A DNA stretch of 64,000 bases from contig JABLXU010000021.1 of the NCBI GenBank assembly GCA_013177805.1, positions 1 through 64,000 of the forward strand, read 5' to 3'. The DNA is from Candidatus Omnitrophota bacterium. GTDB lineage: Bacteria; Hinthialibacterota; Hinthialibacteria; Hinthialibacterales; Hinthialibacteraceae. Below are positions 39,940 to 58,827 of this stretch, one piece after another; positions within the stretch are counted from its first letter, which is position 1; each line of letters starts with the position of its first letter. Made by a program: the position numbers and the translations under genes. The notes under the pieces are model-generated. The model was not told the DNA's origin and made no database searches. It saw nothing but the letters and a program-made list of their open reading frames with translations.

Positions 39940-40341
39940 ATGAACCAGGTTCTCTCCTCCAAAAACGGCGCGCGGGATGTGTGCGAGGTGGTCTTTATCG
40001 ACCACCAGAAAGTGGAACGCGTGCGCCAAGCGTTGCCTAGCCTGGATGTCTTCTCTTATCTGGCCTATACCTTCAAGGCGCTGGGAGATCCCACCCGCGT
40101 TAAGATGCTCTATGCCTTGTCTAAGGAAGAACTGTGCGTTTGCGACATGGCGGCTTTGTTTGGTGTGACGCGCTCGGCTATCTCGCACCAACTCCGCACT
40201 TTGCGTAATTTGCGGCTGGTCAAGTACCGGCGCGATGGCAAGGTAGTGTATTACTCGTTGGACGATGACCACGTGACCCGTTTTTTGCGGGACGGCATGG
40301 ATCATGTCCGTGAGTACGTTTTAAACGACCAGCGCCTCTAG
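39940..40341 (+). CDS. ArsR/SmtB-family metal-responsive repressor (CadC/ZiaR-like)
   Basis: 133 residues. Helix alpha-3 motif ELCVCDMAALFGV (Cys pair as in CadC) and DNA-recognition helix TRSAISHQLRTLRNL. The alpha-5 site has DDDHVTRFLRDGMDHVREYV, keeping the Asp, His, His and Glu pattern of the SmtB zinc site; the N-terminal Cys in RDVCEVV may complete the alpha-3N site. It should dissociate from DNA when Zn, Cd or Pb binds. It is cotranscribed with the ATPase gene that begins 12 bases later. Confidence 0.93.
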   Translation: MNQVLSSKNGARDVCEVVFIDHQKVERVRQALPSLDVFSYLAYTFKALGDPTRVKMLYALSKEELCVCDMAALFGVTRSAISHQLRTLRNLRLVKYRRDGKVVYYSLDDDHVTRFLRDGMDHVREYVLNDQRL

Positions 40342-40353
40342 GAGCATCGGATT

Positions 40354-42492: not shown

Positions 42493-42576
42493 GAGTTTAG
42501 TATTCATTTCCCCGCGCAATGTTCTTTTTCAATGCTTTATTCGTGGCATGAACAGGAATGAGCCTACGAACAGATT

Positions 42577-42609
42577 CCCTCTCCCTCTGGGAGACGACAG
42601 GATGAGAGA
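42577..42609. repeat. Dispersed palindromic intergenic repeat (copy 2)
   Basis: CCCTCTCCCTCTGGGAGACG followed by a decayed GATGAGAG; the left arm is the same as in the copy at 62271. Confidence 0.65.
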
Positions 42610-42738
42610 ATGCAGGAAAGAAAGTCGTTCTTTTTACGCAATCCCGCAAATGGCATGATAGTTATTTTATTATCTATTATGGATCTTGTCTGCATACTGG
42701 GGAGAATCAATAATTATATTTTTATTATAAGATTTTCC

Positions 42739-42776
42739 TTGAAATTTCCTCCATAGCTATGCTAGAATTTAGCTAA
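42739..42776 (+). promoter_or_regulatory. Promoter with two embedded TAGCTA palindromes, upstream of the ArsR-family gene
   Basis: TTGAAA (42739-42744), 18-bp spacer, TAGAAT (42763-42768). ATAGCTAT (42753-42760) lies inside the spacer and TTAGCTAA (42769-42776) directly follows the -10, so a bound protein would block RNA polymerase. This fits autorepression by the gene that follows. Confidence 0.6.
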
Positions 42777-42803
42777 TATAACATCCAGCCACGGCATAAT
42801 AAT

Positions 42804-43142
42804 ATGAACATGCATGATGAACTCGCCAACCAGGAATTCCGCGAAATGCTGGCCGAACGTATTCGGGCGTTAGGGGATCCAACTCGTATCCTTTTGTTAC
42901 ATGAACTGATGAAGGGAGAGAAATGTGTCCATGAACTGGCTGATATCGTGGGGAAAAGTCAAGCGACGGTGTCCAAGCACTTGGCGATCCTGCACCGGCA
43001 CGGTTTTTTGCAGCATAGGCGGGAAGGGGTGCAAACTTTTTACCGGATCGGCAATTCTAGTATGCAAACATTTTGTGAATTGATGTGTGAATCCCTCAAA
43101 AAACACCTCAGCAACATGGCCAAGGTCGGTGCGTCCGAATAA
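42804..43142 (+). CDS. ArsR-family transcriptional regulator at the head of the cytochrome locus
   Basis: 112 residues, winged helix. RALGDPTRILLLHEL is the family signature; recognition helix SQATVSKHLAILHRHGFL. Cysteines are Cys41 (helix alpha-3, EKCVHELAD) and Cys91/Cys95 near the C-terminus (FCELMCESL). This placement would allow a thiol switch or metal binding, but the sensory ligand is not determined. It is convergent with the cytochrome operon that ends at 43170, and its promoter carries the box shared by the cytochrome units, so it is the best candidate for their regulator. Confidence 0.88.
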   Translation: MNMHDELANQEFREMLAERIRALGDPTRILLLHELMKGEKCVHELADIVGKSQATVSKHLAILHRHGFLQHRREGVQTFYRIGNSSMQTFCELMCESLKKHLSNMAKVGASE

Positions 43143-43169: not shown

Positions 43170-44324
43170 TCATGACCCACCGAATCCCTTTTCCTTCGTG
43201 TATTTCCGGTCATCGTCGTGACATGCCGCGCATGAATAGGCAACTCCGCCGGCTTTGGGAATCAGGTTGCCATTGGATTCTTCCATCGAACCCTCATGAC
43301 ACACCACGCATTCCGCCTGACGATGGACCTCATCCAGGGCCACGCCGGTGACGGTGTGGTCGAACGTTTCCGCTTTCCATCCTTCGATGTGGCAGTTCGT
43401 GCAACGGTTGTCCAGTTTCCGCAGATTACCCCGCTGGATGTGGCAATCCAGGCAGTGCAGGCGGTCATGGTAGATCTTCAGGGGCCATCCGCTGGCGGCG
43501 TGATTGAACACATCGTTAGGATCCCGCCCATGGCAATGCTCACACGTGTCGTTTTCATGGCAAACAAAACAATGATCGTGCATAGCCTCCGGAGTCAGAT
43601 TGCCCATGGGCTTCAGCTCGGCGGCGTATTGGTCATGACACGCTTCACACCCCTGTTGCTGGTGGCAATCACCGCAGTTGCGGTCGTACTTATACGCGTG
43701 CGTTTTGTGATGAAAGGGCACTTGGTCGTTTTCTTCGTAATTCGTATTGTAAATAATCAAATCCCGCATTCGGACTGGTGGGTAATGCTTGGTTTCGGAG
43801 GGGGAGACCGCCGTGCCGTGGAGCGGACCGCCGGATTTCTTCTCGTGGCAGATCACGCAGTCGGTGTTCCGGTCCCATTGGGTGTGGCAGCCGACGCATT
43901 GCCGGTGATACGCCCCTTTAAGGCCCGGCTGGGCGATGTTCTCGTGAATGATATCCACGGGATGACAGCTTTTACACGAAGCGGGAATGGCGCCCTTTTC
44001 GTTATAATGATGGCACATCTGGCACCCTTCGACCGTGCTGGACATGTGGGCGTGCGTCGCGTGGTTGAAGCGTACCGGCACGTATAGATCCTCCACTGCC
44101 TTCAATTCGTCCAGAATCACCACGTCAGGTCCCTGGGTGGCCAAGGGCACATAGGCCCCTTTGGGCCGGGGACATGGCTGCAAACAGGGATTTTCCGAGG
44201 TTGGATGAAGACAAGTATGGCATTGTGCGCAGTCCACGATGGGATGTTCCTCAGCGGCCGCGATTCCGGCGAGGGGAATGATAAAGAGCGCAATGGATAT
44301 CCAAAAGCGGGATGAATGATTCAT
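43170..44324 (-). CDS. 13-heme periplasmic cytochrome c
   Basis: 384 residues with a signal peptide ending near residue 24 (LAGIAAAEE). Thirteen CxxCH motifs run from CAQCH (residue 32) to CAACH near the end, several in close pairs as in CGDCHQQQGCEACH and CFVCHENDTCEHCH. Right after the first heme there are extra cysteines at 38, 47 and 51 (CHTCLHPTSENPCLQPCP) not used by heme motifs. It is the last gene of a three-gene minus-strand operon after the CbcL-like and HybA-HybB-like proteins, so it probably takes electrons from, or gives them to, that quinone-linked complex in the periplasm. Confidence 0.92.
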   Translation of the reverse strand: MNHSSRFWISIALFIIPLAGIAAAEEHPIVDCAQCHTCLHPTSENPCLQPCPRPKGAYVPLATQGPDVVILDELKAVEDLYVPVRFNHATHAHMSSTVEGCQMCHHYNEKGAIPASCKSCHPVDIIHENIAQPGLKGAYHRQCVGCHTQWDRNTDCVICHEKKSGGPLHGTAVSPSETKHYPPVRMRDLIIYNTNYEENDQVPFHHKTHAYKYDRNCGDCHQQQGCEACHDQYAAELKPMGNLTPEAMHDHCFVCHENDTCEHCHGRDPNDVFNHAASGWPLKIYHDRLHCLDCHIQRGNLRKLDNRCTNCHIEGWKAETFDHTVTGVALDEVHRQAECVVCHEGSMEESNGNLIPKAGGVAYSCAACHDDDRKYTKEKGFGGS

Positions 44325-44344: not shown

Positions 44345-46459
44345 TCAAGATTCCTTCTCTTCCATCGTGGGAATAATGGGGAACACCGTCACCATGATCC
44401 GGTACACTAACATCAGTCCAGCAATTAATCCCAACGTCACCACGATTTCACCCCAGCTGGGGAAATAGGCCGTGACTTTATACACCGGCGTATACGCCGT
44501 AATGAATACGTTGATCCGGTTGAACGCCACGCCGATCACCACGAGGGCGGACGCGATAAACAGCAGCCCAGGATTCTTTCTTACTCCTTTCATCAGGAAC
44601 ATCCCCAGAGGGATGAGTACGCCGATCAACATCTCCGCCATAAACATGTAGGATTGCACGCTGCCGTCGAACAGGTACTTGCCCGCCTCGCGGATGGTGA
44701 TATCCCCCAACTTGGTGGCGAAATAGGCGGCCAGGAAAATGGCGATCGACTTGCTCAAAGGGCTGAGAATATGCATCTCCGGCTTTTGGTTGAAGATTCG
44801 CGAGGCGATCATCGACTCGAAGATGACCATTGGAAATCCGACGCAAAACGCCGTAAGCAAAAAGAGCAGGGGCAGGATCGGGGTGTACCAGAGGGGATGC
44901 ATCTTGTAGGGGGCGATCAGCATCAGCGCGCCCAGAGAGGATTGATGCAGGAATGACAGCACCACCCCCGCGATTACGATCACCGGCAAAATCCGGAATA
45001 AATACCGTTCTGCCAACCCCAGCACTCCTTCCACCATGCCGTTGAACCGTGAGAGGATCCCGGGCAGATTCACCTGGCCTTTGAACCGCTCCACCACGAT
45101 GGGCACAAACTCAAGGTACAGCACCGTAAGGTAGGCCATGACGCACATACCCACCTCGAAAAGCACCGAGTGGCCGGACCACATGGACGGCATCATGGGA
45201 TGCCAGATGTTGTAGTACCGCCCGAGATCCACCAGCAGGCCAAAGACCACGAAGGTATACCCCAGTAACGCGGTCAACAGGGCGGGCCGCACAATCGGTT
45301 CGTAATGCTTGCGGTGGAAGATATGAGCCAGCGCCGCGGTGGTGTAACCCCCAGCGGCCAAGGCCACGCCCGTGGCCACATCTACTGCGATCCACAATCC
45401 CCAGGGATATTGGTCATTCAGGTTGGTCACCGCTCCAATTCCGAACAGAAAACGGTATACGGCCACGCTGAGACCCATGAAAATGAATCCCAACAACAAC
45501 AAAACGCCAGGGGTGATCAATTTCTTGCCCATCGGCGCCGCCTTGGAGGGATTGTATTTCAAAGGAACTTTCGGCAGATGTTCGTCTTGGTTTTGTTCAC
45601 CGTACAACCAGGAAATCATGCCCAGAATGGAGAAAAGGGCAACCGGCGGGATGAAATAGTTGAAGATCCCATGCTGCAATCCTTCCGTGAGCCGGGGTGG
45701 CGCGGTTTCTCCCAAAACGGGCAGGCCGATCTCCTCAAACGGCTTGCTGGAGATATAAAGCCACGAGGTGCCGCCCGCTTCGTGCTCGCCATAAACATGG
45801 GGGACGTATTTCTGAGGATTTTTGGCGATTTTCTGCTTTGCGAGTTCCAGCAGATCTTTTCGCTTGCCGAAGGTCAGGCATTGGGGCGGGCAGATTTCCA
45901 CGCAGGCGGGGACGCCACCCTCCTGGGAAATGCGTTCGTAACATAACGTGCATTTCTGGACCTTAGGCGTGAGGGGATTGTCGTATTCATAAGCCGGGAT
46001 CTGAAATGGGCAGGCCACCATGCAATAGCGGCACCCCATGCACCGGTCCGCATTGTAAACCACTGCTCCCGTCGCGGTTTTGGTGAAGGCGGTGACCAGG
46101 CAGGCCGAATAGCACGCCGGATGATTGCAATGAAAACATTGAAACTTCACCCACAGCGGGCGTCCGCCTTCTTCCGGGCCGGGATATTCATTGACAATGG
46201 TGTAATGCCCGGCGTCCGGACGCCGATGTTTCTCAAAAACCGACTTATCCTCGAACGTCTCCAAAGGCTGCATGGGCAGGTGGTTGGCTTGGTTGCAGGC
46301 CCATTCGCATTTGCGGCAGCCGATGCATTCGGTGACATCCGTCAACACGCCATAATACTCGGCGGCGGTTTCTTCCGGATCGGCGGCCGCGCTTGATGCG
46401 GCGGGAATTCCGGTGGTTCCAATGGAAGCCACAGTGGCTAGAAAATTCCGGCGGTCCAT
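44345..46459 (-). CDS. HybA-HybB-like fusion: 4x[4Fe-4S] ferredoxin plus NrfD/HybB quinol membrane subunit
   Basis: 704 residues from the ATG at 46459 (GGAG six nt upstream); a GTG 12 bases earlier is possible. The N-terminus MDRRNFLATVASIG is a twin-arginine signal. Four Cys clusters for [4Fe-4S] centres follow: CIGCRKCEWAC, CFHCNHPACYSAC, CMGCRYCMVAC, and CTLC...CVEIC. A membrane helix at ~265-285 and then 8-9 helices (~330-700) resemble HybB/NrfD (YPWGLWIAVDVATGVALAAG). In most complexes these are two proteins. It should exchange electrons between the quinone pool and periplasmic cytochromes, coupled to the 13-heme and c/b cytochromes of this operon. Confidence 0.92.
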   Translation of the reverse strand: MDRRNFLATVASIGTTGIPAASSAAADPEETAAEYYGVLTDVTECIGCRKCEWACNQANHLPMQPLETFEDKSVFEKHRRPDAGHYTIVNEYPGPEEGGRPLWVKFQCFHCNHPACYSACLVTAFTKTATGAVVYNADRCMGCRYCMVACPFQIPAYEYDNPLTPKVQKCTLCYERISQEGGVPACVEICPPQCLTFGKRKDLLELAKQKIAKNPQKYVPHVYGEHEAGGTSWLYISSKPFEEIGLPVLGETAPPRLTEGLQHGIFNYFIPPVALFSILGMISWLYGEQNQDEHLPKVPLKYNPSKAAPMGKKLITPGVLLLLGFIFMGLSVAVYRFLFGIGAVTNLNDQYPWGLWIAVDVATGVALAAGGYTTAALAHIFHRKHYEPIVRPALLTALLGYTFVVFGLLVDLGRYYNIWHPMMPSMWSGHSVLFEVGMCVMAYLTVLYLEFVPIVVERFKGQVNLPGILSRFNGMVEGVLGLAERYLFRILPVIVIAGVVLSFLHQSSLGALMLIAPYKMHPLWYTPILPLLFLLTAFCVGFPMVIFESMIASRIFNQKPEMHILSPLSKSIAIFLAAYFATKLGDITIREAGKYLFDGSVQSYMFMAEMLIGVLIPLGMFLMKGVRKNPGLLFIASALVVIGVAFNRINVFITAYTPVYKVTAYFPSWGEIVVTLGLIAGLMLVYRIMVTVFPIIPTMEEKES

Positions 46460-46525
46460 GATGTTCTCCACTCGATAAATCGTGAGATGAAACTCCTAGT
46501 GGGGTGAATGGTACCAGGCCGCGTA

Positions 46526-48484
46526 TCACGACTCGGTGTCACTGTTTCCCTTGTTCTCGTCGGCGGTTTCCCGCAGTTCCGTTACCTCTTTCCGGGCTTC
46601 AGATGCGAATGTTCGTTCATATTCCAATGGATGGCGGCTCCTCAGATGATGCAGGGTCATCCGCCCGTTTAGCCAGGTGACGCTCATGGGATACTCCTCT
46701 GGATGGAAAATGACGAAAAAGAAATGCCACACGACGATCGCCAACGTGGCCAGCACGGCTTCGTAGTAGTGGATCAACTCGGCGATGTCGATCGCCCACT
46801 TGGGCAGATATTGGAAGGCTAGGATCGGAAACCAGAGGATGAGGCCGGTTACCGCCATGATAATCACACCCCAGACCAGCGCCCAGAATTCCATCTTTTC
46901 CGCATAATCATACCGGTCGAAACGCGGCGGCTCGGTCCGTTTGCCCCGGTAATACTGCAGGTTTTCCCATACATGGCGGATGTCCCGCGGCCAAAACAGG
47001 AAGGCGGCCAGTTCTTCCCGGCCCCGCCGGAAAGCCAGCATGTAGAATGCGTAAGCCATCGCTGTGGCCATCATCACCACCGCCGCAACACGGTGGCTGA
47101 CCGAACGAATCCCTTCACTGAAGCCCAAGTAGGACAGCATGGTGACCCACCACGAATTGGGGCTGACCAGCGCAAATCCAGTGATCACCAACACGATAAA
47201 GGTGATCGTCAGCAAAATGTGGCAAATGATCTCAAACCGGGTGAACCGTTGATAGGTGGGCTGGCTCACTTCCCTCTTGAATTTCTCCTTCAGCAACGCC
47301 CAGAGGATCACACCGTTGTGAACCAGCATGCCCCCGATGATCACGACGATCAGCGGTATATAAATCCGGGGAACCCAGGCGGCAATTGCGTCCGAGCGCA
47401 GAGTGACTTCCGTGTGAATGGGAGCGGCCAGCACATTGGCCGTGATCCCTGGATGACAGCGGCCGCACGTCTCAACCAACCGCTCGGGACTGACCGTGGA
47501 ACGCGGATCGGACGAAGGCAGAATCAGGTGATTCCCATGGCAACTGCTGCACAGGGCCACTTTCTTGGACCCGTGCTGCAAGGCCAAACCATGGTAACTT
47601 TCGAAATAATTTTGTACCCGGCCCTTGGGGATGTTGTACTTTTCGTTAATCACAATAGACGAGTGGCAGCGCCCGCAGGTATTGCCCGATACGTTGGCGT
47701 ACGAAACCGGTGAGCGTTCGTCTGTTACCCGGAAGATGGCGTGCTCTCCGTGACAATCGGTGCAAATAGGTGCATCTTTATGGCCGTAGGCCGCCGATTT
47801 TCCATGCACGCTTTCCTGGTACTGTTCTTTCTCGGTGGTGTGACACTGCCCGCATGTCTCGGCCACGTTCATGAAATTGGTGCGCGAGTTCGGATCCCGC
47901 AACGGCAAAATCGCGTGTGAACCGTGGCAATGAACACACGAGGGGGCCTTGTCGTTCCCCCGCAACAATTCCGTGGCGTGGACGCTTTCCCGGTACAGCA
48001 TTTCCCGTTGAAGGACATCTTTGCTATATTCGGCCATGATGGCCGATTCGGAATGGCACTTGCCGCACACATTTGCCACCCGGAATAAATTGGTGAGCGA
48101 GTTGGGGTGGCTGGCCGGGAGGATTTTGTGGGCGTCCCCATGGCAATCCACGCACGAGGGACCATCCGGCACGTCATGGACCGAGGATTTCAACTCCTCG
48201 GCGGTCGAATGGCAGGAGGAACAATCCACCTTCTGGAGTTCTGTATCGTGCGGCAATTCCGTGATGTCAGAATGGCAACCGGTGCATCCCGCGTCCTTGT
48301 GGACCGATGCCTCGAACAACTTTAAATCGACGAACATGGATTGTTCCTGGCCGTCCCGCTCCCCCACAATGTCGGCATCCGCGTGGCATTCCAAGCAGGA
48401 TTGCGGTTCTTCCAGGTCTTGCGTCAGCGTGAATGGATTGGAGACGAACAGGATCAGTACGGCAAAGCGGAAATACGGCTTCAT
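46526..48484 (-). CDS. CbcL-like multiheme cytochrome c / cytochrome b fusion
   Basis: 652 residues from the ATG at 48484, which has GGAG eight nt upstream and opens a signal peptide (MKPYFRFAVLILFVS). Eleven CxxCH motifs occupy ~15-365, from CLECH to CGRCH. The C-terminal ~380-600 has four to five helices of the FdnI/HydC-type di-heme cytochrome b, with His residues in RFEIICHILLTITF, GIRSVSHRVAAVV, and VVWHFFFVIFHPEEYP. This two-part plan is that of CbcL, the low-potential quinol oxidase of Geobacter metal reduction; CbcL has nine c hemes. It heads the three-gene operon and probably passes electrons from menaquinol to the periplasm. Confidence 0.9.
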   Translation of the reverse strand: MKPYFRFAVLILFVSNPFTLTQDLEEPQSCLECHADADIVGERDGQEQSMFVDLKLFEASVHKDAGCTGCHSDITELPHDTELQKVDCSSCHSTAEELKSSVHDVPDGPSCVDCHGDAHKILPASHPNSLTNLFRVANVCGKCHSESAIMAEYSKDVLQREMLYRESVHATELLRGNDKAPSCVHCHGSHAILPLRDPNSRTNFMNVAETCGQCHTTEKEQYQESVHGKSAAYGHKDAPICTDCHGEHAIFRVTDERSPVSYANVSGNTCGRCHSSIVINEKYNIPKGRVQNYFESYHGLALQHGSKKVALCSSCHGNHLILPSSDPRSTVSPERLVETCGRCHPGITANVLAAPIHTEVTLRSDAIAAWVPRIYIPLIVVIIGGMLVHNGVILWALLKEKFKREVSQPTYQRFTRFEIICHILLTITFIVLVITGFALVSPNSWWVTMLSYLGFSEGIRSVSHRVAAVVMMATAMAYAFYMLAFRRGREELAAFLFWPRDIRHVWENLQYYRGKRTEPPRFDRYDYAEKMEFWALVWGVIIMAVTGLILWFPILAFQYLPKWAIDIAELIHYYEAVLATLAIVVWHFFFVIFHPEEYPMSVTWLNGRMTLHHLRSRHPLEYERTFASEARKEVTELRETADENKGNSDTES

Positions 48485-48527
48485 GGGGTTGACTCCATGC
48501 TGAAAAACTACGATGGTGGTTTTCACC

Positions 48528-48557
48528 ATTATATAGCTATATAGCTAAAAATGTAAT
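48528..48557 (-). promoter_or_regulatory. Promoter with embedded TAGCTA boxes for the CbcL-like operon
   Basis: On the minus strand ATTACA (48557-48552), 18 bases, TATAAT (48533-48528). The spacer is filled by ATAGCTATATAGCTAA (48533-48548 read on the plus strand), two overlapping TAGCTA palindromes. The layout matches the promoter at 42739. Confidence 0.6.
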
Positions 48558-48729: not shown

Positions 48730-48837
48730 AGAAACCGGTTGAAAATTCTGGCCGGTTTGCCGTAAAACCCGGCTGACGGTCTCAACCCATTTTAAGCAAA
48801 TATCTAACCAAGTCCGGTTCGACGGGAGACAATGCGA

Positions 48838-50352
48838 ATGACAGAACAATCCACATCCCCCCTTCATAAACCTTTGACCCACAATTGGGTGTCGGTTTTT
48901 GGATTCATGCTGGCTATGGCGTTTCTGGTTGGAGAAGCCCTGATCATCACCCTGGATTTCGTGTATGGCCAAAATAATCCCTACGTGGGGATTCTGATTT
49001 ACGTAGTGGGGCCTGCGATCCTAATCCTGGGATTGCTGATGGTCCCGCTGGGGATGTGGCTGCAATTCCGGCGGCGTCAAAAAGGAATGGTGGAGAAAGA
49101 GTTTCCCGTTTTTGATTTAAATACACCCCGCCACCGCCTCTATTTGACTACGTTTGTCATCATTTCCACCGTGTTTATCTGCCTCTCGATGATCGGTTCC
49201 TATCAGGCCTATCACGTGACTGAATCCACTGAATTCTGCGGACTGATGTGCCACCAGGTAATGAAGCCGGAGTACACAGCATATCAATACTCCCCGCACG
49301 CCCGGGTGGATTGCGTGCAATGCCACATCGGGCCGGGCGCGAGCTGGTACGTAAAAAGCAAACTCTCGGGCTTGCGGCAAGTCTGGGCGGTGGCGACGAA
49401 TTCCTATGAACTGCCGATCCAAACCCCGATTGAAAATCTGCGCCCCGCCCGAGACACCTGCGAGCAGTGTCATTGGCCGGAGAAATTCTACGAAGCGGTG
49501 GAAAAATCATTGACCTATTACGCCAACGACGATGAGAACACACCCTATCACGTCAAGCTGCTCCTCCACGTGGGCGGCAGTTCCACGATTCTGGGCCATT
49601 ATACGGGAATTCACTGGCACATCGCCCGGGATCACAAATTAGAGTACTACCCGGCCGATTACGCCCGCCAGATCATCCCTTGGGTCCGCGTCACTCATGA
49701 AGACGGGCGGGTGGAGGAATTCATCAGCACTGAAGCCACGGATTTCGACAAATCGCAAATCGATCCCGCCGCGATCCGCGAACTGGATTGTATCGACTGC
49801 CACAACCGCCCCTCGCACCGGTACGAATCTCCTTTTGCTTCCGTCAATCAGGCAATGGAACTGGGGCTGATCGATCCTAAGTTGCCGGGAATCAAGGGAG
49901 TGGCGGTCGAGGCCTTACAAGGCGAATATCAAACCACCCCCGAGGCCTTACAGGCTATCGAGGACAAAATCCGCGGACAGTTTGAAGAAACCGCGGCAAA
50001 CGACCCTGAAATCAAAGCCAAAGTGGATCAGGCCGTTAAGCAAACCCAAGCCATATTTGAGCGAAGTATCTTTCCCGAAATGAAAGTGGATTGGACGAAA
50101 TACCCCTCCAATATCGGCCATTTCGACTTTCCTGGTTGCTACCGGTGCCATGATGGGAAGCACGCCACTCCGGAGGGGAAAGTCATCCGGGATGATTGCA
50201 ATCTGTGTCATTCAATCATCCAACAGGGCGAAGGCTGGGAAGAGATCAACCAACTCGAATACAAGTTGCAAGACTTTGTACATCCCCGGGGCATGGGCGA
50301 TGCCTGGGAAGGGCAAAACTGCCATGAATGCCACGGCCCCGGCATGATGTAA
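48838..50352 (+). CDS. ImcH-like NapC/NirT-family 7-heme inner-membrane cytochrome
   Basis: 504 residues from the ATG at 48838 (GGAG nine nt upstream). Three membrane helices precede the heme domain (FGFMLAMAFLVGEALIITLD; LIYVVGPAILILGLLMVPLG; FVIISTVFICLSMIGSYQAY). The first heme motif is CGLMCH (CX3CH) followed by six CxxCH motifs: CVQCH, CEQCH, CIDCH, CYRCH, CNLCH, CHECH. Three helices plus seven hemes match ImcH, the high-potential quinol oxidase used by Geobacter for extracellular electron transfer. It probably oxidises menaquinol and reduces periplasmic cytochromes. It lies divergent from the CbcL-like operon. Confidence 0.88.
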   Translation: MTEQSTSPLHKPLTHNWVSVFGFMLAMAFLVGEALIITLDFVYGQNNPYVGILIYVVGPAILILGLLMVPLGMWLQFRRRQKGMVEKEFPVFDLNTPRHRLYLTTFVIISTVFICLSMIGSYQAYHVTESTEFCGLMCHQVMKPEYTAYQYSPHARVDCVQCHIGPGASWYVKSKLSGLRQVWAVATNSYELPIQTPIENLRPARDTCEQCHWPEKFYEAVEKSLTYYANDDENTPYHVKLLLHVGGSSTILGHYTGIHWHIARDHKLEYYPADYARQIIPWVRVTHEDGRVEEFISTEATDFDKSQIDPAAIRELDCIDCHNRPSHRYESPFASVNQAMELGLIDPKLPGIKGVAVEALQGEYQTTPEALQAIEDKIRGQFEETAANDPEIKAKVDQAVKQTQAIFERSIFPEMKVDWTKYPSNIGHFDFPGCYRCHDGKHATPEGKVIRDDCNLCHSIIQQGEGWEEINQLEYKLQDFVHPRGMGDAWEGQNCHECHGPGMM

Positions 50353-50630: not shown

Positions 50631-52541
50631 ATGAAAAATTCCTCCAATTTACTTCCTTTCCTGGCAATCTTGGTTATATCAACGCTTGTATGTACTGCGC
50701 TGGCCGGAGCGGGGATTGAAGTATTAACCGTCTCTCCCCGCTTGATTGCGGATGATGAAACCGGATTCCTTGATCAACGCACAACCGGTTTGTCCAACGT
50801 GGGATTGGGAGATAAATGCTATCTCACGGTCCGTCCGGACAATCCGGACGATCAACTTACCAGTATCGCATGGTTCTTTGCCGGTCGGCCCGCCTCCTCG
50901 GCCGCGGCGTTTCAATTTGTGGATCAGGCCCAGACATGGTTTATCCCGGATAGGATTGGCGAATATATTGTGCAAGTCACCGCTCAAAGCACCCTCACAG
51001 GGGAGACGATGACTTTCCAACGGAGAATCCTGGGCGCGGTTTTTACGGGAGTCGGGGGACGGAACAACGAGGCACCCCAGTTCCCGCAATGCCAACTCTG
51101 CCACGGGGCGATTGTGGACCGGTGGGAAACCACCCGGCATGCGCATGTGCTCGAAAATCACCTCAATGGGCAGCGTTCCGATCAATACGATCCAACCTGC
51201 TTCGAGTGCCATACAGTGGGATTCAACGCGCAATCGGTGGCGGCCAACAATGGCTTCAGTCATACTGCCCGTATCCTCCAAGCCGATCTCAACCAACTGG
51301 CCGGTCAAGTCAACGAAGCCTTCCGCCGGAATCAGGATGCCAATCCCGGGAATGATGTGTTGTATTATGAGACCCTGGCACCCCAGTTGCGGGCCAAGGC
51401 CAATGTACAATGTGAAAATTGCCATGGGCCGGGCAGTGAGCACTTTGGCAATCCCGCCAATATCGGCAAGGCTTGGGACGCCCGTGTGTGCGCTCAATGC
51501 CATGACGCGATGGGATTCGACGGGTATCCCTACCCGTTCGATTCCTCCAGCCACAAGAAGTTGACGGCTTCCCTCCAAAACAATCCCGGTTTGTTTAACT
51601 CCAGTTGCGCCAAATGCCACACTGCCGAAGGTTTTTACCGTCTCGCGGTTCTGAACAATCCCAATATTCTCCCGGATGACAATCTCGAACCGCATGGCGT
51701 CTCGTGCGTAGCTTGCCATGATCCTCATAACCTCGTCCATCCCATGCAACTCCGGTTGATGGGAGATATCCCGCTTGACAGCGGCCATGTATACACGGAG
51801 GGCGGTACGGGAAGCCTTTGCGCGGTGTGTCATCAGTCGCGTGTGTCAGGCAGCCTGGAATCGGTGATCCAAACCCAAAACAATGCTCCCCATTTCGGAC
51901 CCCAAGCGGATGTCATGATGGGCATCAACGCTTGGGATTTCGGCACGGGATTTGTGAATAAAACATCCGTCCATAAGTATGTGGTCCAGGATACATGCGT
52001 GGCCTGCCACATGGCCCGCATCCCCGAAAATGGTTGGAGCCTGGAACGGGGAATTCTCCTGGGCGGGCATAGCTTTCGGGTCACCAACATCGGGGACGCG
52101 GCCGGGCATGCGATATCGAATTACCAAAATTCCTGCTTGCCGTGTCACCTGACCATGACTTCCATCGACCGGCGCATGTCCACCAGCCAGGACTACGACG
52201 GGAATGGGAAAATCGAGGGTATCCAGACCGAGGTCAAGGGATTGCTCCGGATCATTGCGGCTCAATTACAACAACGATATCCAGACATCCAGGTAAGAGA
52301 AGATCAGGAATTGATCATTCCCTCCGCGGTCTTTAACCAGGCGTCGTTCCTAGAGCGGGCCGCTATCTACAACTACCGCCTGGTAGTGCGGGACGGCAGT
52401 TTCGGCATTCACAACGCGCGGTTTATCGTCGAGATTTTACAAAAAACATATGGGGCATTGACGCAACGATCGTTCAATTCGGACTATCCTATGGCGTACG
52501 CGGTGGGAACCTCCTCCGTCCAGGGATGGTCTGAATATTAA
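50631..52541 (+). CDS. 9-heme cytochrome c with N-terminal beta domain
   Basis: 636 residues, signal peptide ending near ALAGA (residue ~26). Residues ~28-140 form an Ig-like beta domain (YLTVRPDNPDDQLTSIAWF; EYIVQVTAQSTLTGE). Nine CxxCH motifs follow: CQLCH, CFECH, CENCH, CAQCH, CAKCH, CVACH, CAVCH, CVACH, CLPCH. The end is a long helical segment with YNYRLVVRDGSFGIHN, a pattern shared with the helical C-termini of NrfA/hydroxylamine-oxidoreductase-type multiheme proteins. It could be an electron-transfer cytochrome or an enzyme; no distal-ligand heme variant (for example CxxCK) is present. No clear ribosome binding site. It begins a four-gene plus-strand unit. Confidence 0.88.
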   Translation: MKNSSNLLPFLAILVISTLVCTALAGAGIEVLTVSPRLIADDETGFLDQRTTGLSNVGLGDKCYLTVRPDNPDDQLTSIAWFFAGRPASSAAAFQFVDQAQTWFIPDRIGEYIVQVTAQSTLTGETMTFQRRILGAVFTGVGGRNNEAPQFPQCQLCHGAIVDRWETTRHAHVLENHLNGQRSDQYDPTCFECHTVGFNAQSVAANNGFSHTARILQADLNQLAGQVNEAFRRNQDANPGNDVLYYETLAPQLRAKANVQCENCHGPGSEHFGNPANIGKAWDARVCAQCHDAMGFDGYPYPFDSSSHKKLTASLQNNPGLFNSSCAKCHTAEGFYRLAVLNNPNILPDDNLEPHGVSCVACHDPHNLVHPMQLRLMGDIPLDSGHVYTEGGTGSLCAVCHQSRVSGSLESVIQTQNNAPHFGPQADVMMGINAWDFGTGFVNKTSVHKYVVQDTCVACHMARIPENGWSLERGILLGGHSFRVTNIGDAAGHAISNYQNSCLPCHLTMTSIDRRMSTSQDYDGNGKIEGIQTEVKGLLRIIAAQLQQRYPDIQVREDQELIIPSAVFNQASFLERAAIYNYRLVVRDGSFGIHNARFIVEILQKTYGALTQRSFNSDYPMAYAVGTSSVQGWSEY

Positions 52542-52571
52542 ATTTTAGTAATGAAAGAAGGAGCTGACGTC

Positions 52572-53162
52572 ATGAAGAAATCGAGCATCGTGGGGTTGTT
52601 GATTGGGCTGACTGCTCTGCTGGTGATTCCGTTTCATGTCCTCAAAGCCGGAGAAGAGAGCAAGGACGTGGAGAAAATTGAATTCGTGGGCGCGAACAAA
52701 TGCAAAATGTGCCATAACTTGAAAAAATTCGGTATGTTCCATGATGATTGGATGCAGACCAAACACGCGAAGGCCATGGATGTCCTGAACGAGGATGAAA
52801 AGAAAAATCCCGAGTGCTTGAAATGCCACACCACCGGGTACGGCAAACCGGGCGGTTTTGTCAGCTTGGAAAAAACTCCTGCCCTGGCCGGTGTCCAATG
52901 CGAAATGTGCCATGGCCCCGGACAAGAACATATTAAATCGAAACGCGGCGGCACCGTGATCCCTCATGCTTGGGAACCGGAAGAGGAAACCTGTGTGAAA
53001 TGCCATAATAAGGAGAATCCCAACTGGAAAGAAGACCGGTACACCGATCCAGAAACAGGTACCAAAGCCGGTTTCATTTACAAAGTCGCGGTGAAGGAAA
53101 TCAATCACGCCAAAGTTCTGGAACAACTGGGTAAAAAACCCAAAACTGCTGATTTGAAATAA
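52572..53162 (+). CDS. Tetraheme cytochrome c (c554 family-like)
   Basis: 196 residues from the ATG at 52572, with AAGGAG nine nt before it. Signal peptide to about residue 26. Four CxxCH motifs (CKMCH, CLKCH, CEMCH, CVKCH) in the c554/c-prime type arrangement, e.g. GANKCKMCH, CLKCHTTGYG, GVQCEMCHGPGQEH. Such proteins shuttle electrons in the periplasm. It follows the 9-heme gene by 30 bases and precedes the porin gene by 75, so it may feed the outer-membrane conduit. Confidence 0.92.
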   Translation: MKKSSIVGLLIGLTALLVIPFHVLKAGEESKDVEKIEFVGANKCKMCHNLKKFGMFHDDWMQTKHAKAMDVLNEDEKKNPECLKCHTTGYGKPGGFVSLEKTPALAGVQCEMCHGPGQEHIKSKRGGTVIPHAWEPEEETCVKCHNKENPNWKEDRYTDPETGTKAGFIYKVAVKEINHAKVLEQLGKKPKTADLK

Positions 53163-53237: not shown

Positions 53238-54746
53238 ATGGAATCTGAACGTGTGTGGCGAAGAGGTATGAACGGGAAACTTCACATCCTTGTGGTTTTC
53301 TTCTTAGGAACAATCTGCCTCACCTGGGCTCCGGCTCCAAAGGCTGGAGCCCAGGAGTCCGCTGAATCCGTGGATACCAGGGAGACCGAAAGCCCGGAGG
53401 CCGAACAGCCGGCCGCCGGAGGTGCTGACGTGGAGAGTGCCGCTGGGGAAAGTGGATCGCCAGAAAAATCGGCATGGTTTGAATCCATGAAAGTATCCGG
53501 TACGCTCCACTCTAGTTATCAATTCCGCAGCTACGATGGCCGGGACGATAGCGATATCTATGAGTATTTCTCATTGCGGTTGCGTGATATCGTGAAGGAC
53601 CGGGTTGACGGAGCGTTTTCGCTTTTTTGGCATGAGGATCTGAACGGTGGCAGTACGCTCAAGGGATCTGAACTTTACGATCCCTTTTTGGACATCGACC
53701 AGGCGGACAGCAATCGCTTCCGGTTCTACACTGGTTACCTGGATTTCAAGCAACTGGGTTTCGAGGAAAGCCGCCTGCGCGTGGGCCGTCAATTCCTGGA
53801 GGATATCGACTACGCCCATTTCGACGGCGCGTCCTACCGGTTTTCTCCCACCGATCCGTTGGAAATTACCCTGTTCGGCGGCCGTCCCGTAACGTTTTAT
53901 TCGTCCTCCAGCGGTGACGCCTTCTACGGCGCGGATGTCCGTTACCGCTTCACGCCTCAAACCAAGGCCGCCGCCCGCTATTACCGTTACGACGCCGATC
54001 CGTTCCGGGATGACTTGGCCGCGGTAGAAGTCTGGCACATGTTCATGCCGGAACTGCAAACCCACGCCGAGTTCTCCCTGCTGGATGCCGATCCATATCT
54101 TTTCCAGAACGATTGGTATTACCGCTGGGATGAATACGACTTCGATATCGTGGCTCAAGTCGTCCGTCTATTCAGTGAAATCAGCGATCAAACTATTAAT
54201 TTCAATCCCTATTTCCCCGTCATGCATGGCTACGAGCCATTCACTTACGGTTCCACCCTCTTCACCAAGGGATTGAATGACTGGGTCAGCCTCAACGCCG
54301 GTTTCGATTTCCGGGTGTCGGATGGCGGCCTGGATCCCGTCGCGGAATACACCAACCGGGACTACGTCCGGGGGACTCTCGGGGCGGAATTCTATCCCAC
54401 CCGGCAATTGACCCTCAGCGTGAACGGAGAATACTGGAGCGTGGATTCTGATGATGAATTCACTGGAGTCTCCGGCGAGGTGGAATACAAGCCCACGAAG
54501 CAATGGACACTCACGGCCGGTGCGGAATATGGAGAATATATCCAAGAGTATATGGATGAATTTCTCTTGTTCTTTGGACAGGAAGAAGTGTTCCGGATTA
54601 CCCCGGATGTCATCACCTATTACGCCCGGGTCAAGTGGCAACCCACAAGCAGAATCTACACCGCCGCCCGCTTCGAAGTGGAGGATAACAGCCTCGAGAA
54701 CGACAATTGGTACGCATTCCAATTGCAAGTGGGAGTCAATTTTTAA
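53238..54746 (+). CDS. Outer-membrane beta-barrel porin of a porin-cytochrome conduit
   Basis: 502 residues. A signal peptide lies within 11-35 (GKLHILVVFFLGTICLTWAP); the Met at 53268 is an equally possible start. After an Ala/Glu-rich linker, alternating hydrophobic/polar strands fill the rest (HSSYQFRSYDGRDDSDIYEY; YTGYLDFKQLGFEESRLRVG; GADVRYRFTPQTKAAARYY) and the chain ends WYAFQLQVGVNF, with the C-terminal Phe needed for barrel insertion. The 11-heme lipoprotein gene begins one base after the stop, the arrangement of Geobacter-type porin-cytochrome complexes. It should sheath a cytochrome through the outer membrane. Confidence 0.85.
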   Translation: MESERVWRRGMNGKLHILVVFFLGTICLTWAPAPKAGAQESAESVDTRETESPEAEQPAAGGADVESAAGESGSPEKSAWFESMKVSGTLHSSYQFRSYDGRDDSDIYEYFSLRLRDIVKDRVDGAFSLFWHEDLNGGSTLKGSELYDPFLDIDQADSNRFRFYTGYLDFKQLGFEESRLRVGRQFLEDIDYAHFDGASYRFSPTDPLEITLFGGRPVTFYSSSSGDAFYGADVRYRFTPQTKAAARYYRYDADPFRDDLAAVEVWHMFMPELQTHAEFSLLDADPYLFQNDWYYRWDEYDFDIVAQVVRLFSEISDQTINFNPYFPVMHGYEPFTYGSTLFTKGLNDWVSLNAGFDFRVSDGGLDPVAEYTNRDYVRGTLGAEFYPTRQLTLSVNGEYWSVDSDDEFTGVSGEVEYKPTKQWTLTAGAEYGEYIQEYMDEFLLFFGQEEVFRITPDVITYYARVKWQPTSRIYTAARFEVEDNSLENDNWYAFQLQVGVNF

Positions 54747-54747
54747 T

Positions 54748-55695
54748 ATGATTCAGAACCGACTTTCCCCATTATCTTGGTTGATACCCCTGATTTGGGC
54801 AGTTTTTCTCTCTGGTTGCGATCCCAAGGAACTGGCCAATACCTTTCCGCACAAACCCCATATCGATCAGGGAGTGACCTGCGATGTTTGCCATGAAATG
54901 CAAGACAACCAAGTGACCAATCCGACCCTCGAAACCTGTCTGACCTGTCACACCCTGGACGAAGACCGGTATCAAAAATGCCAGGATTGTCACAATCAAA
55001 CCTCCGTGGAATGGAACGAACAGAGCCTCATCACTCACGAAAAAATGCTGCGGCCTTTCCTGCCAAAGGATTGGGAGGATATCTCGTACAAACACGGCGA
55101 ACATTTGAAGGACTACAACCATTGCGTGGATTGCCACAAGGGAGTCGAGCAATCCACCCAAATATCGATCGAGAACTTGCCCTCCATGAAAACCGCCATG
55201 GCCGTGCATGAGGAACTGGGATTATCCAATGATTGCGAAGCCTGCCACCTCGAACTCAATTCTTTTACTCCTCCCACCAGCCACGACAGCCGGTGGACGG
55301 AAACTCATGGCCGCATGACAGAGTTCACAGGCACAGACAGCTGTTTGCTATGCCACCAAGAAGAAACTTGCCAACTGTGCCATGCCACTCAAAAACCTCG
55401 AAATCACACCAATTTGTGGCGGCTGAAAACCCATGGCATTCAAGCCTCGTTCGACCGGGCGAAATGCATGGTCTGCCACCGGGACGATACCTGTCTGGTC
55501 TGCCACCAGGCATCTTCTCCCCCGGTGCCGCCTGCTTCCTATCACACACCGGATGCCACGTGTTTATCGTGCCACAGCCCCTTGGCCGCCCGGGGACCTA
55601 AACCCCGTCCCAAACCAAGCCTCTACAAACCGATGCCCCACCGCATGATGATGGGTGTAACTTCCCAAAAATGCCTGGAATGCCATCTGTTTTAG
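54748..55695 (+). CDS. 11-heme cytochrome c lipoprotein
   Basis: 315 residues from the ATG one base after the porin stop; a longer frame reading back into the porin is a shadow. Signal peptide with lipobox FLSGC (Cys about residue 26). Eleven CxxCH motifs from CDVCH to the very C-terminal CLECH; several are paired (CLLCHQEETCQLCH, CMVCHRDDTCLVCH). The lipid anchor and translational coupling to the porin point to a subunit of the porin-cytochrome conduit, on either the periplasmic or outer face. Sequence spacing resembles the 13-heme protein at 43170. Confidence 0.9.
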   Translation: MIQNRLSPLSWLIPLIWAVFLSGCDPKELANTFPHKPHIDQGVTCDVCHEMQDNQVTNPTLETCLTCHTLDEDRYQKCQDCHNQTSVEWNEQSLITHEKMLRPFLPKDWEDISYKHGEHLKDYNHCVDCHKGVEQSTQISIENLPSMKTAMAVHEELGLSNDCEACHLELNSFTPPTSHDSRWTETHGRMTEFTGTDSCLLCHQEETCQLCHATQKPRNHTNLWRLKTHGIQASFDRAKCMVCHRDDTCLVCHQASSPPVPPASYHTPDATCLSCHSPLAARGPKPRPKPSLYKPMPHRMMMGVTSQKCLECHLF

Positions 55696-56730: not shown

Positions 56731-56778
56731 CCAAATTAGTGGCGCACTAAAACTTTTTTCAACGAGGTGTCAGTAACT

Positions 56779-58827
56779 ATGGATCGACGCGGATGGATTT
56801 TACCCCTGATGGGATTCGCTATCGGATTATGCGGTATGACGGCTTGGGGCGCGGACGGTTTGCAGGTCAAGATTTTGAGTACGGTAATCAACCAAGACCT
56901 CAAACCCGAAGTGACTTTCACCGTCCAGGATGGCGTAGGCAATCCCTTGGCGCTTTCTGAGGTGACGGTCCGTTTCATGATTGCCCGGCTGGATGTCTAC
57001 GACGCTCAGAAAGGCAGTTCGGCCTATTGGAGCTACAATGTCCGGACCCAGACCGTCCCGGAAGGATATCCCAACGCCGGCGCGCGGGCCGAGCAGGCCA
57101 CTCTCGACAGCAATGGGATCTTGACCCAGTTGGAATTCGGCAAGTACCTGTATACTTTCAATACGGCCTTGCCCGCGGATTACGACCGGACTAAGACGCA
57201 CACCGTGGGCGGGCAGATCCAGCGGAATGTGGACGATAAGGTCTTTTACGCCAATCCTCTCTATCATTTTGTCCCCAATGGCAGCGACGTCGTAGCATTG
57301 CGCAAGGTGGTCACTACCGAAGCCTGCAATGCTTGCCATGCCGGTTTGGCGTTGCACGGCGGCGGGCGGCGCGAGGTGGGATATTGCATCCTGTGCCATA
57401 GTCCTCAATCCACCGATCCCGATACGGGCAATACCGTGGACATGACGGTCATGATTCACAAGATCCACATGGGCGAGGATCTCCCCAGCGTCCAGGCGGG
57501 GAAGCCTTACCAAATTGTAGGCAACAGGCAGAGCCTTCATGATTATTCTAAAGTCGTGTTCCCTATGGACCATCGGAATTGCACGTCGTGCCACGACGGG
57601 CCACAGGGATCGGTGTACAAGACCGCTCCGAGCATCCGGGCCTGCGGTTCTTGCCATGACGATGTCAATTTCCAGACCGGTGAAGGCCATGGCCCCGGCA
57701 ATTTTCCCCAGCAAGATGATTCCATGTGCACCGCCTGCCATACCGCGGAAGGACCGGAGTTCGGCATATCCGTCGCCGGCGCGCATACTGTGCCCGCCAA
57801 GTCGCAGAAACTGCGCGGCTTGATCGCGGAGATCCTCGAAGTGACGGACGCCCTGCCCGGTCAGGCCCCCAAGGTGACTTTTTCACTAAAACAGAAAGAT
57901 GGCAGCGCGGTTGATCCGGTGGAACTTACCTCGTTCGCCATCACCTATGCTGGACCGACAAAGGAATACACCTCGTACACCCGGGAAGACGCCTCGAAAA
58001 CCTCCAGCAAGGTAGGAGAGGGGACCTATACCTATACTTTTACCAAAGCCCTTCCTGTGGACGCGCAAGGAACATATGCCTTCGTGATCGAAGGGCGGCG
58101 CACAGTGGTGTTGGAAGACAAGCCGGAAGGCATGCAAGATATAACCGTGGTCGAGGGATTAATGAATCCGGTCAAGTATGTCGCGGTTACCGATACGCAA
58201 CCGGTGCCCCGCCGCCAGGTGGTCAGCCTGGAAAAATGCAACGCCTGCCATGACCAGTTATCCCTGCACGGGTCCCAGCGCAATGTCATCGATAACTGTG
58301 TGACGTGCCACAATCCCAAGGTCAGCGACATCGGGCGCCGGCCGGAAGGCGTGGGTGGCGGCCAATCGGTCAGTTTCGCGTACATGATCCACAAAATCCA
58401 CGCCGGGGAGGAGTTGGAGAAGGATTACACCGTGTACGGGTTCGGCAATACCCCGCACAATTACAATCATGTCCTCTTTCCGGGTTTGTTGAACAAGTGT
58501 GACATGTGCCATGTGACTTCCGTTCCCGCTTTGCCGCTTTCTTCGGATGTATTGCCAATTAATTTCACTGACAAGGATGGCAAGAATGTCCGTATCCCGC
58601 CCACCAGCGCGGCGTGCAACTCGTGCCATGACAACGATTCCGCTCTCGCCCACGCGGAACTCAACACCACGTCGGAAGGAATCGAATCCTGCGCCGTTTG
58701 CCACCGCGAAGGCCGGGACGCCAGCATCGCGGAGGCGCATGCCGTCAAGCAGTTCCTGAACGTGATCGAGACGATGGGTCCGCCTCCCACCGCCGTGGAG
58801 CATTGGAGTATGTTCTTGAATCAATGA
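56779..58827 (+). CDS. OmcA/MtrC-family decaheme outer-surface cytochrome
   Basis: 682 residues from the ATG at 56779 (ACGAGG upstream; a GTG 12 bases earlier is possible). Signal peptide ends near TAWGAD. The family plan is complete: beta domain I (~25-165), pentaheme domain (CNACH, CILCH, CTSCH, CGSCH, CTACH), beta domain II (~345-455), second pentaheme domain (CNACH, CVTCH, CDMCH, CNSCH, CAVCH), ten motifs in all. The conserved CNACHAGLALHGGGRREVGYC-like stretch and MIHKIHMGE/MIHKIHAGE repeats are diagnostic. Members reduce minerals, electrodes or shuttles outside the cell. No lipobox is evident. A terminator follows. Confidence 0.95.
   Translation: MDRRGWILPLMGFAIGLCGMTAWGADGLQVKILSTVINQDLKPEVTFTVQDGVGNPLALSEVTVRFMIARLDVYDAQKGSSAYWSYNVRTQTVPEGYPNAGARAEQATLDSNGILTQLEFGKYLYTFNTALPADYDRTKTHTVGGQIQRNVDDKVFYANPLYHFVPNGSDVVALRKVVTTEACNACHAGLALHGGGRREVGYCILCHSPQSTDPDTGNTVDMTVMIHKIHMGEDLPSVQAGKPYQIVGNRQSLHDYSKVVFPMDHRNCTSCHDGPQGSVYKTAPSIRACGSCHDDVNFQTGEGHGPGNFPQQDDSMCTACHTAEGPEFGISVAGAHTVPAKSQKLRGLIAEILEVTDALPGQAPKVTFSLKQKDGSAVDPVELTSFAITYAGPTKEYTSYTREDASKTSSKVGEGTYTYTFTKALPVDAQGTYAFVIEGRRTVVLEDKPEGMQDITVVEGLMNPVKYVAVTDTQPVPRRQVVSLEKCNACHDQLSLHGSQRNVIDNCVTCHNPKVSDIGRRPEGVGGGQSVSFAYMIHKIHAGEELEKDYTVYGFGNTPHNYNHVLFPGLLNKCDMCHVTSVPALPLSSDVLPINFTDKDGKNVRIPPTSAACNSCHDNDSALAHAELNTTSEGIESCAVCHREGRDASIAEAHAVKQFLNVIETMGPPPTAVEHWSMFLNQ

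Follow-up and report, generated by a model that had tools for sequence, protein, structure and literature searches.

Three adjacent minus-strand genes in the window, as the whole 64,000-nucleotide stretch of DNA analysed is called here, raise the question whether a multiheme c/b protein, a HybA-HybB (HmcB-HmcC) fusion and a 13-heme cytochrome build one complex with two quinone sites, as the original prediction proposed, or represent separate gateways on the same quinone pool. The trio and the identities of its members are confirmed by open reading frames, motifs and Pfam and NCBIfam matches. The CbcL/MtoC/MtrH-like c/b protein is encoded at 46526..48484 (ORF, Pfam, motif count, alignment, model), the fusion at 44345..46471 and the 13-heme periplasmic cytochrome c, the predicted partner of the iron-sulfur-NrfD unit, at 43170..44324 (384 aa, with 13 CXXCH motifs in its ORF). 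The cytochrome gene had been named in the heading of the prediction, although it lies outside the interval 44345-48484 to which that prediction was assigned. The gaps are, as predicted, 20 bases between the cytochrome and fusion genes and, counted from ATG 46459 of the fusion, 66 bases to the c/b gene; the latter narrows to 54 bases if the fusion starts at GTG 46471, the less likely of the two starts (708 aa, against 704 aa from the ATG).

The HybA-HybB fusion protein

A Tat-signalled four-cluster ferredoxin and an NrfD/HybB domain are indeed joined in a single continuous frame, as demonstrated by motif, profile and relatives. From the N-terminus, the protein (all parts on the minus strand) comprises a predicted Tat signal peptide (MDRRNFLATVASIGTTGIPAASSAAA, 46382..46459) with the motif MDRRNFL, an iron-sulfur domain with 16 cysteines for four [4Fe-4S] clusters (45692..46354, residues about 40-260), a weakly hydrophobic anchor helix equivalent to the HybA tail anchor (45587..45652, residues 274-295), a polar, lysine-rich linker which is the site of fusion (45512..45586, residues 296-320; pLDDT below 50 at 296-306) and the NrfD/HybB membrane domain (44366..45511, residues 321-702) with the Q-site residues D364, D415 and S435. 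TatC is encoded in the same genome. NCBIfam models match as HybA/HmcB over residues 5-294 and as HybB/HmcC over 310-702, and the Pfam NrfD match (E=8.3e-24, 85 bits) covers residues 348-661. The 16 cysteines are kept in 43/43 alignment rows (one cysteine in 43/44), D415 and S435 in 43/43 and D364 in 41/43. The AlphaFold model (pLDDT 87, pTM 0.85) places ten helices in the membrane part, downstream of the iron-sulfur domain and the anchor, with ActC of alternative complex III and FdnH as the top Foldseek matches for the membrane and the iron-sulfur part respectively.

With the NrfD fold and the P-side Asp/Ser Q-site residues the protein belongs to the NrfD/HybB class, and with the RR signal, four cysteine sets and an anchor after the iron-sulfur domain equally to the HybA-type Tat tail-anchored class, whose anchor helix, however, is no longer the C-terminus here. 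The join connects the cytoplasmic C-tail of HybA with the HybB N-terminus; as both ends are cytoplasmic, the topology is unchanged by the fusion. D364, D415 and S435 correspond to D58, D109 and S129 of Escherichia coli hydrogenase-2 HybB, and all 16 iron-sulfur cysteines align with HybA, whereas the E. coli proteins are separate chains and the fusion has a cytochrome partner. NiFe subunits HybO/HybC are encoded neither in the operon nor in the examined neighbours, and the protein is not assigned to hydrogenase-2.

A sequencing or assembly error could in principle have created such a frame from hybA and hybB, which are adjacent and usually separate and which in some relatives are in frame and separated by hardly more than a stop codon. 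The original prediction had itself named this as what could undo it. Two further genomes of the family nevertheless carry the same fusion, 61-63% identical and with different linkers, and comparable hybA-hybB fusions occur at three further places on the tree; an error as the cause is thereby ruled out, its probability being practically nil. Most relatives keep hybA and hybB separate; fusion is a recurrent minor event, and on sequence comparison HybA-HybB joins arose at least three times.

A conserved cassette and its neighbour

The hybA-hybB-13-heme cassette was found at 44 loci in about ten phyla, with exactly 13 CXXCH motifs in 41/42 aligned relatives of the cytochrome and 11 further histidines conserved in 37-39 of 39. 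The two halves of the fusion score 343 and 300 bits against the HmcB and HmcC models, and the match of the cytochrome is to the C-terminal region of HmcA, all three scores lying below the curated cut-offs. An identity of the cytochrome with HmcA was considered and rejected, as only about 75 residues match. In contrast to the 16 or 9 hemes of the Hmc and Nhc systems (HmcABCDEF, NhcABCD) there are 13 hemes and, as HmcE/F-like genes are not found beside the operon either, the unit is not an Hmc complex. A module from a survey of Tat tail anchors shares the plan of a Tat iron-sulfur protein with C-tail, an NrfD/HybB protein and a multiheme cytochrome c, but its iron-sulfur and NrfD proteins are separate chains and its cytochrome often has eight hemes and belongs to the tetrathionate reductase family (PMC10924467). 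Likewise, as far as descriptions allow the comparison, iron-sulfur and membrane quinol subunits in separate chains feed cytochromes in electron export by Cbc4 (CbcSTU) of Geobacter and SirCD of Shewanella (PMC11434368). For a 13-heme cytochrome, the literature search returned an archaeal report only.

The c/b gene can be read from ATG 48529 (46526-48529, 667 aa), but ATG 48484 (652 aa) is the likely start because of its better upstream sequence. The protein consists of a signal peptide, a c-heme domain with 11 CXXCH motifs, an anchor helix and a four-helix di-heme b domain (five transmembrane helices in the model; Pfam Ni_hydr_CYTB, E=6.7e-18), in which four histidines, H422, H464, H572 and H587 as numbered from ATG 48484, are invariant in an alignment of 16. 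The fusion of a c-heme domain to a di-heme b membrane domain fits CbcL/MtoC/MtrH, a family with a range of 3-23 hemes (PMC6295460), while Geobacter CbcL in the strict sense differs with 9 hemes and six transmembrane helices. Matches from Desulfuromonadales share 32-34% identity over residues 208-613, the one checked possessing 9 hemes. In the model the b domain has an FdnI-like fold, for which an N-side quinone site is expected, so that quinol oxidation by the c/b protein would be energetically costly.

Whether the c/b protein is dedicated to the cassette can be judged from its distribution. Within the family, each of the three genomes with the fusion has the c/b gene directly upstream of it; co-occurrence is also high, with a c/b gene in 7/8 cassette genomes versus 29/137 others in one sample and in 20/24 in a second. 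On the other hand, among 22 cassettes well flanked (8 kb) only 9 have a c/b gene nearby and 13 do not, two genomes of the same family (G003 and G005) have it at the corresponding locus, where the cassette is missing, and its position varies, upstream in the window's family and at L073, downstream at six other loci (L035, L061, L066, L067, L076 and L117). Quinol-oxidising modules are swapped among five genomes of one family.

A stable complex of the three proteins, with two quinone sites working in a redox loop or by bifurcation, therefore appears quite unlikely, even though the genes are tightly spaced, the two quinone modules are distinct with conserved sites, and cytochrome b and NrfD subunits do coexist in DsrMKJOP and Hmc. 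What stands of the original prediction is the presence of two quinone-reactive modules of different type, with conserved HybB Q-site residues and heme-b histidines; a dedicated three-gene complex is not supported, and bifurcation or loop formation gained no positive support. By profile search (Pfam, NCBIfam) the three proteins contain no flavin-binding, Rieske or other bifurcating cofactor domain, a quinone-based crossover being invisible to sequence. The conserved unit is hybA-hybB-13-heme, from which the neighbouring c/b gene can be separated.

Proposed quinol gateways and the direction of electrons

An ImcH-like gene and genes for a predicted outer-membrane cytochrome/porin conduit are transcribed divergently from the operon, an arrangement that the original prediction missed and that provides a better functional context. 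On the plus strand follow the ImcH-like NapC/NirT cytochrome (48832..50352, 506 aa, 3 TM, 6 CXXCH and one CX3CH, PF03264), a 9-heme MtrC/C554-like cytochrome (50631..52541; Pfam, motif count), a 4-heme cytochrome c554-like protein (52551..53162; Pfam, motif count), a predicted porin-like outer-membrane beta-barrel (53238..54746), an 11-heme cytochrome with the lipoprotein signal LSGC (54748..55695) that begins straight after the porin stop codon, and a 10-heme MtrC/MtrF-like, predicted outer-surface cytochrome (56767..58827; PF22113, E=2.5e-52). The barrel, without Pfam match, is proposed from sequence appearance and position and is conserved in equivalent loci. The NapC/NirT protein is set beside ImcH by description, that family having about 495-519 aa, three N-terminal transmembrane helices, 6-10 hemes and a NapC/NirT domain. 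A scan for sigma-54 sites yielded 8 versus 9.9 expected, and counts of sigma-70 sites and terminators were not above chance, so that these scans gave no regulatory signal.

With a probability of roughly 60%, the trio represents the inner-membrane part of a locus for extracellular electron transfer, in which the fusion works together with the 13-heme cytochrome as a single quinol:cytochrome c oxidoreductase and the c/b and ImcH-like proteins are separate gateways; we infer direction, partners and complex formation, electrons probably moving from the quinone pool to the cell exterior. Menaquinol would be oxidised at the P-side NrfD site (D364, D415, S435), and electrons would run via the four [4Fe-4S] clusters into the 13 hemes and then reach the cytochromes of the periplasm and outer membrane and the porin conduit, which the divergent genes encode. 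The c/b protein would be a second gateway of the CbcL/MtoC/MtrH kind on this pool, with the ImcH-like protein as a third.

The close NrfD relatives HybB and QrcD, and perhaps HmcC, act as quinone reductases with proton uptake from the N-side (PMC6303296), so the iron-sulfur-NrfD-cytochrome unit could run in reverse, as an electrogenic, Qrc-like menaquinone reductase with periplasmic or extracellular donors and cytoplasmic protons, leaving quinol oxidation to the c/b and ImcH-like proteins. In line with this direction, the membrane half shares with HybB a set of conserved polar residues, among them H509, E439, E552 and E613. The reverse reading is nevertheless unlikely, as the neighbours are electron-export genes, including the ImcH-like protein, and neither a hydrogenase nor another periplasmic donor enzyme was recognised in the examined gene neighbourhood of the operon. 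ImcH has been reported in Fe(III) reducers only; members of CbcL/MtoC/MtrH occur in Fe(II) oxidisers as well as in reducers (PMC6295460). A further NrfD protein of the genome, resembling that of alternative complex III, is encoded close to a heme-copper oxidase gene, and the quinone pool thus has other routes.

A proposed Tat-first, Sec-second protein

Each module is a variant of a type already known, Hmc/Nhc-like iron-sulfur-NrfD-cytochrome, CbcL or ImcH; the least precedented aspect is the order of Tat signal, folded 4x[4Fe-4S] domain, weak anchor and ten-helix membrane domain in one chain. Dual Sec-Tat polytopic proteins such as Rieske, Sco3746 and the MLMS-1 polyferredoxin equally combine Sec-type helices with a Tat-exported cofactor domain and have a weakly hydrophobic, Tat-dependent helix with positive charges after it (PMC5449189), but in the fusion the order is reversed, the Tat domain preceding the polytopic one. 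We infer that Sec would insert the ten-helix NrfD domain while the N-terminal iron-sulfur domain waits; the latter would acquire its fold and its clusters in the cytoplasm and then cross via Tat, taking the weakly hydrophobic anchor along. A literature search for Tat-first multi-spanning iron-sulfur-NrfD proteins gave nothing beyond the work cited. That the fusion is a Tat-first, Sec-second mirror of the published class, and serves with its 13-heme partner as the NrfD-type quinol gateway of the locus, is a tentative proposal from sequence, to which we give slightly less than even odds.

The fusion offers a natural test of whether Tat can export a folded domain at the N-terminus while a polytopic domain is attached on its C-terminal side. 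A 2018 survey described three quinol oxidase families in bacterial extracellular electron transfer, CymA, CbcL/MtoC/MtrH and ImcH (PMC6295460); beside two of these, the locus would add an NrfD-type, iron-sulfur-wired module with a conserved 13-heme partner, and the relatives in which the modules are swapped allow asking which quinone site serves which potential.

The operon and its fused FeS-NrfD protein

On the minus strand, three genes separated by 66 and 20 bases (taking ATG 46459 as the start of the second) encode a c/b protein of 667 (or 652) amino acids (46526-48529) that combines 11 CXXCH motifs with a cytochrome b561 domain; a HybA-HybB fusion of 708 amino acids (44345-46471) that bears a twin-arginine signal, four [4Fe-4S] cysteine sets and an NrfD domain; and a cytochrome of 384 amino acids (43170-44324) that has 13 CXXCH motifs. 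The original prediction described this locus correctly save for its coordinates, which omitted the 13-heme gene. Adjoining the operon, a heavy-metal P-type ATPase gene (40354-42492) lies between two ArsR-family regulators (39940-43142); an ArsR-like gene is also close to the equivalent loci of G001, G004 and G005, other genomes of the family.

The fusion is, as first proposed, genuine and in a single frame, being carried also by G001 and G004 at 61-63% identity. Relatives taken from public genomes almost always have two separate genes, further one-chain versions being found in MAGs of Gemmatimonadetes (L033), Phycisphaerae (L036, second copy) and Myxococcales (L038, first copy). As the fused/split label needs four changes on a tree of 50 concatenated HybA and HybB sequences, at least three of them forced by well-supported branches, fusion (or its loss) has been repeated. 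Where the two parts meet, HybA has a membrane anchor followed by a short polar tail, and HybB opens with a brief polar stretch; by topology, tail and stretch are both cytoplasmic. Fused chains simply have a polar linker that varies at this place, and in some split relatives hybA and hybB are in the same frame with barely more than a stop in between. Loci L036, L038 and L063 contain tandem pairs of the FeS-NrfD-13-heme cassette.

All 16 cluster cysteines are conserved (43/43, one of them 43/44), and the quinone-site residues of Escherichia coli HybB, Asp58, Asp109 and Ser129 (PMC8076601), align with D364, D415 and S435, residues that 41-43 of 43 sequences retain. The AlphaFold model (81 sequences; mean pLDDT 87, pTM 0.85) is of low confidence at linker 296-306; in Foldseek its FeS part resembles FdnH (TMt 0.69), and its membrane part resembles ActC of alternative complex III (TMt 0.67).

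In published dual Sec-Tat proteins the Tat domain comes last, after the Sec helices (PMC5449189); the fusion has the opposite order. Sums on the biological insertion scale of Hessa 2005, taken with no position weights and so meaningful for their ranking only, are 4.1 for the weakly hydrophobic anchor (best 19 residues) and -0.1 for the first NrfD helix, several NrfD helices scoring no better than the anchor. Weakly hydrophobic and followed by five lysines within 30 residues, the anchor shows the pattern by which Sec can release the Tat-dependent helix of the Rieske class; TatC is encoded in the genome, and we infer that the fusion may assemble in a Tat-first order.

The three-gene plan has been described with split genes and an often octaheme cytochrome (PMC10924467), in contrast to the fused, 13-heme arrangement here; no description of the 13-heme version or the fusion was found in the literature searched, most subscription journals lying outside its scope.

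The 13-heme and c/b cytochromes

Exactly 13 CXXCH motifs are present in 41 of 42 relatives of the 13-heme cytochrome (the remaining one has 9), and its gene lies 3' of hybB in cassettes of about ten phyla, as named in record titles. No fewer than 37 of 39 sequences share each of 11 additional histidines, a result expected of mostly bis-His hemes; HmcA models match only about 75 residues. Residues 32-51 form the motif CxxCHxCxxPTxxxPCLxxCPR, in which three cysteines are additional to the first heme motif (C38, C47: 34/39; C51: 39/39), possibly a disulfide or an additional metal site. Nearly identical cassettes in MAGs labelled Gemmatimonas, Latescibacterota and Fibrobacter (L034, L045, L046) would be explained by misbinning, by incorrect naming or by a very recent transfer.

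The b domain of the c/b protein, matching FdnI of formate dehydrogenase N in predicted structure, has four invariant histidines in an alignment of 16, H572 and H587 sharing one helix at a spacing of 15 residues. CbcL of Geobacter carries nine hemes and spans the membrane with six helices (PMC9129911), whereas the c/b protein has 11 hemes and, in a moderate AlphaFold model (pLDDT 73, pTM 0.52), one anchor and four helices; a Desulfuromonadales match at 32% identity also has nine hemes. The protein is thus one of the CbcL/MtoC/MtrH kind, in which heme number ranges from 3 to 23 (PMC6295460), but is not a strict CbcL. Often close to the 11-heme protein is a larger one of c/b type that carries 19 CXXCH (G001, G005, G012; Planctomycetota loci L114, L116, L117, L035, L066, L067). 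A second c/b-type protein of the window's genome (L127 9325-12240, contig C56; 972 amino acids, 8 CXXCH) adjoins a large membrane protein gene.

Separable modules and a probable shared conduit

Among 22 cassettes whose flanks each extend for 8 kb or more, 9 have a c/b gene no further than 11 kb away, compared with 1 of 20 FeS-NrfD pairs lacking a 13-heme gene (Fisher p 0.01, uncorrected for kinship and overstating independence, as the samples include related genomes). By genome, c/b occurs in 7/8 with the cassette versus 29/137 others, and in a second set a match to it was found in 20 of 24 non-Desulfuromonadales genomes searched, most of them with the cassette. The c/b gene varies in position, being upstream of the cassette at certain loci and downstream of it elsewhere, and within the family the gene maps for five genomes make module exchange visible: alongside the conduit of divergent outer-membrane cytochrome and predicted porin genes stand the cassette, c/b and an ImcH-like gene in the window's genome, the cassette and c/b in G004, the cassette and two c/b in G001, and, with no cassette, c/b and ImcH-like in G003 and two c/b and ImcH-like in G005. 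The ImcH-like gene is grouped with the conduit in the window's genome but with c/b in G003 and G005. Cassette and c/b are thus modules related in function yet separable, which speaks against the single three-gene complex originally proposed; the suggested bifurcation has no observed feature behind it.

Divergent from the operon are genes for an ImcH-like NapC/NirT cytochrome, then 9-heme and 4-heme cytochromes, as well as a predicted β-barrel directly followed by an 11-heme lipoprotein cytochrome, and a 10-heme MtrC-like cytochrome. Downstream of this cluster lies an NtrC-type response regulator (59108-60544); sigma-54-like sites are no more frequent than chance across the window. The genome's only further NrfD match (contig C67) has as its neighbour a gene for a long FeS protein, which is probably ActB, and a heme-copper oxidase gene lies downstream of the match; given this locus and three COX1 matches, alternative complex III probably gives the organism a route to oxygen respiration as well.

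Comparable quinol modules, Cbc4 (cbcSTU) of Geobacter and SirCD of Shewanella, act in electron export (PMC11434368), and export is favoured here because ImcH homologues are reported from Fe(III) reducers only (PMC6295460). Less probably, the FeS-NrfD unit may run in the reverse direction, since electrogenic quinone reduction is the activity of QrcD and has been proposed for HybB and HmcC too (PMC6303296). Under the favoured export direction, several alternative quinol gateways would, most likely, serve one shared outer-membrane conduit.
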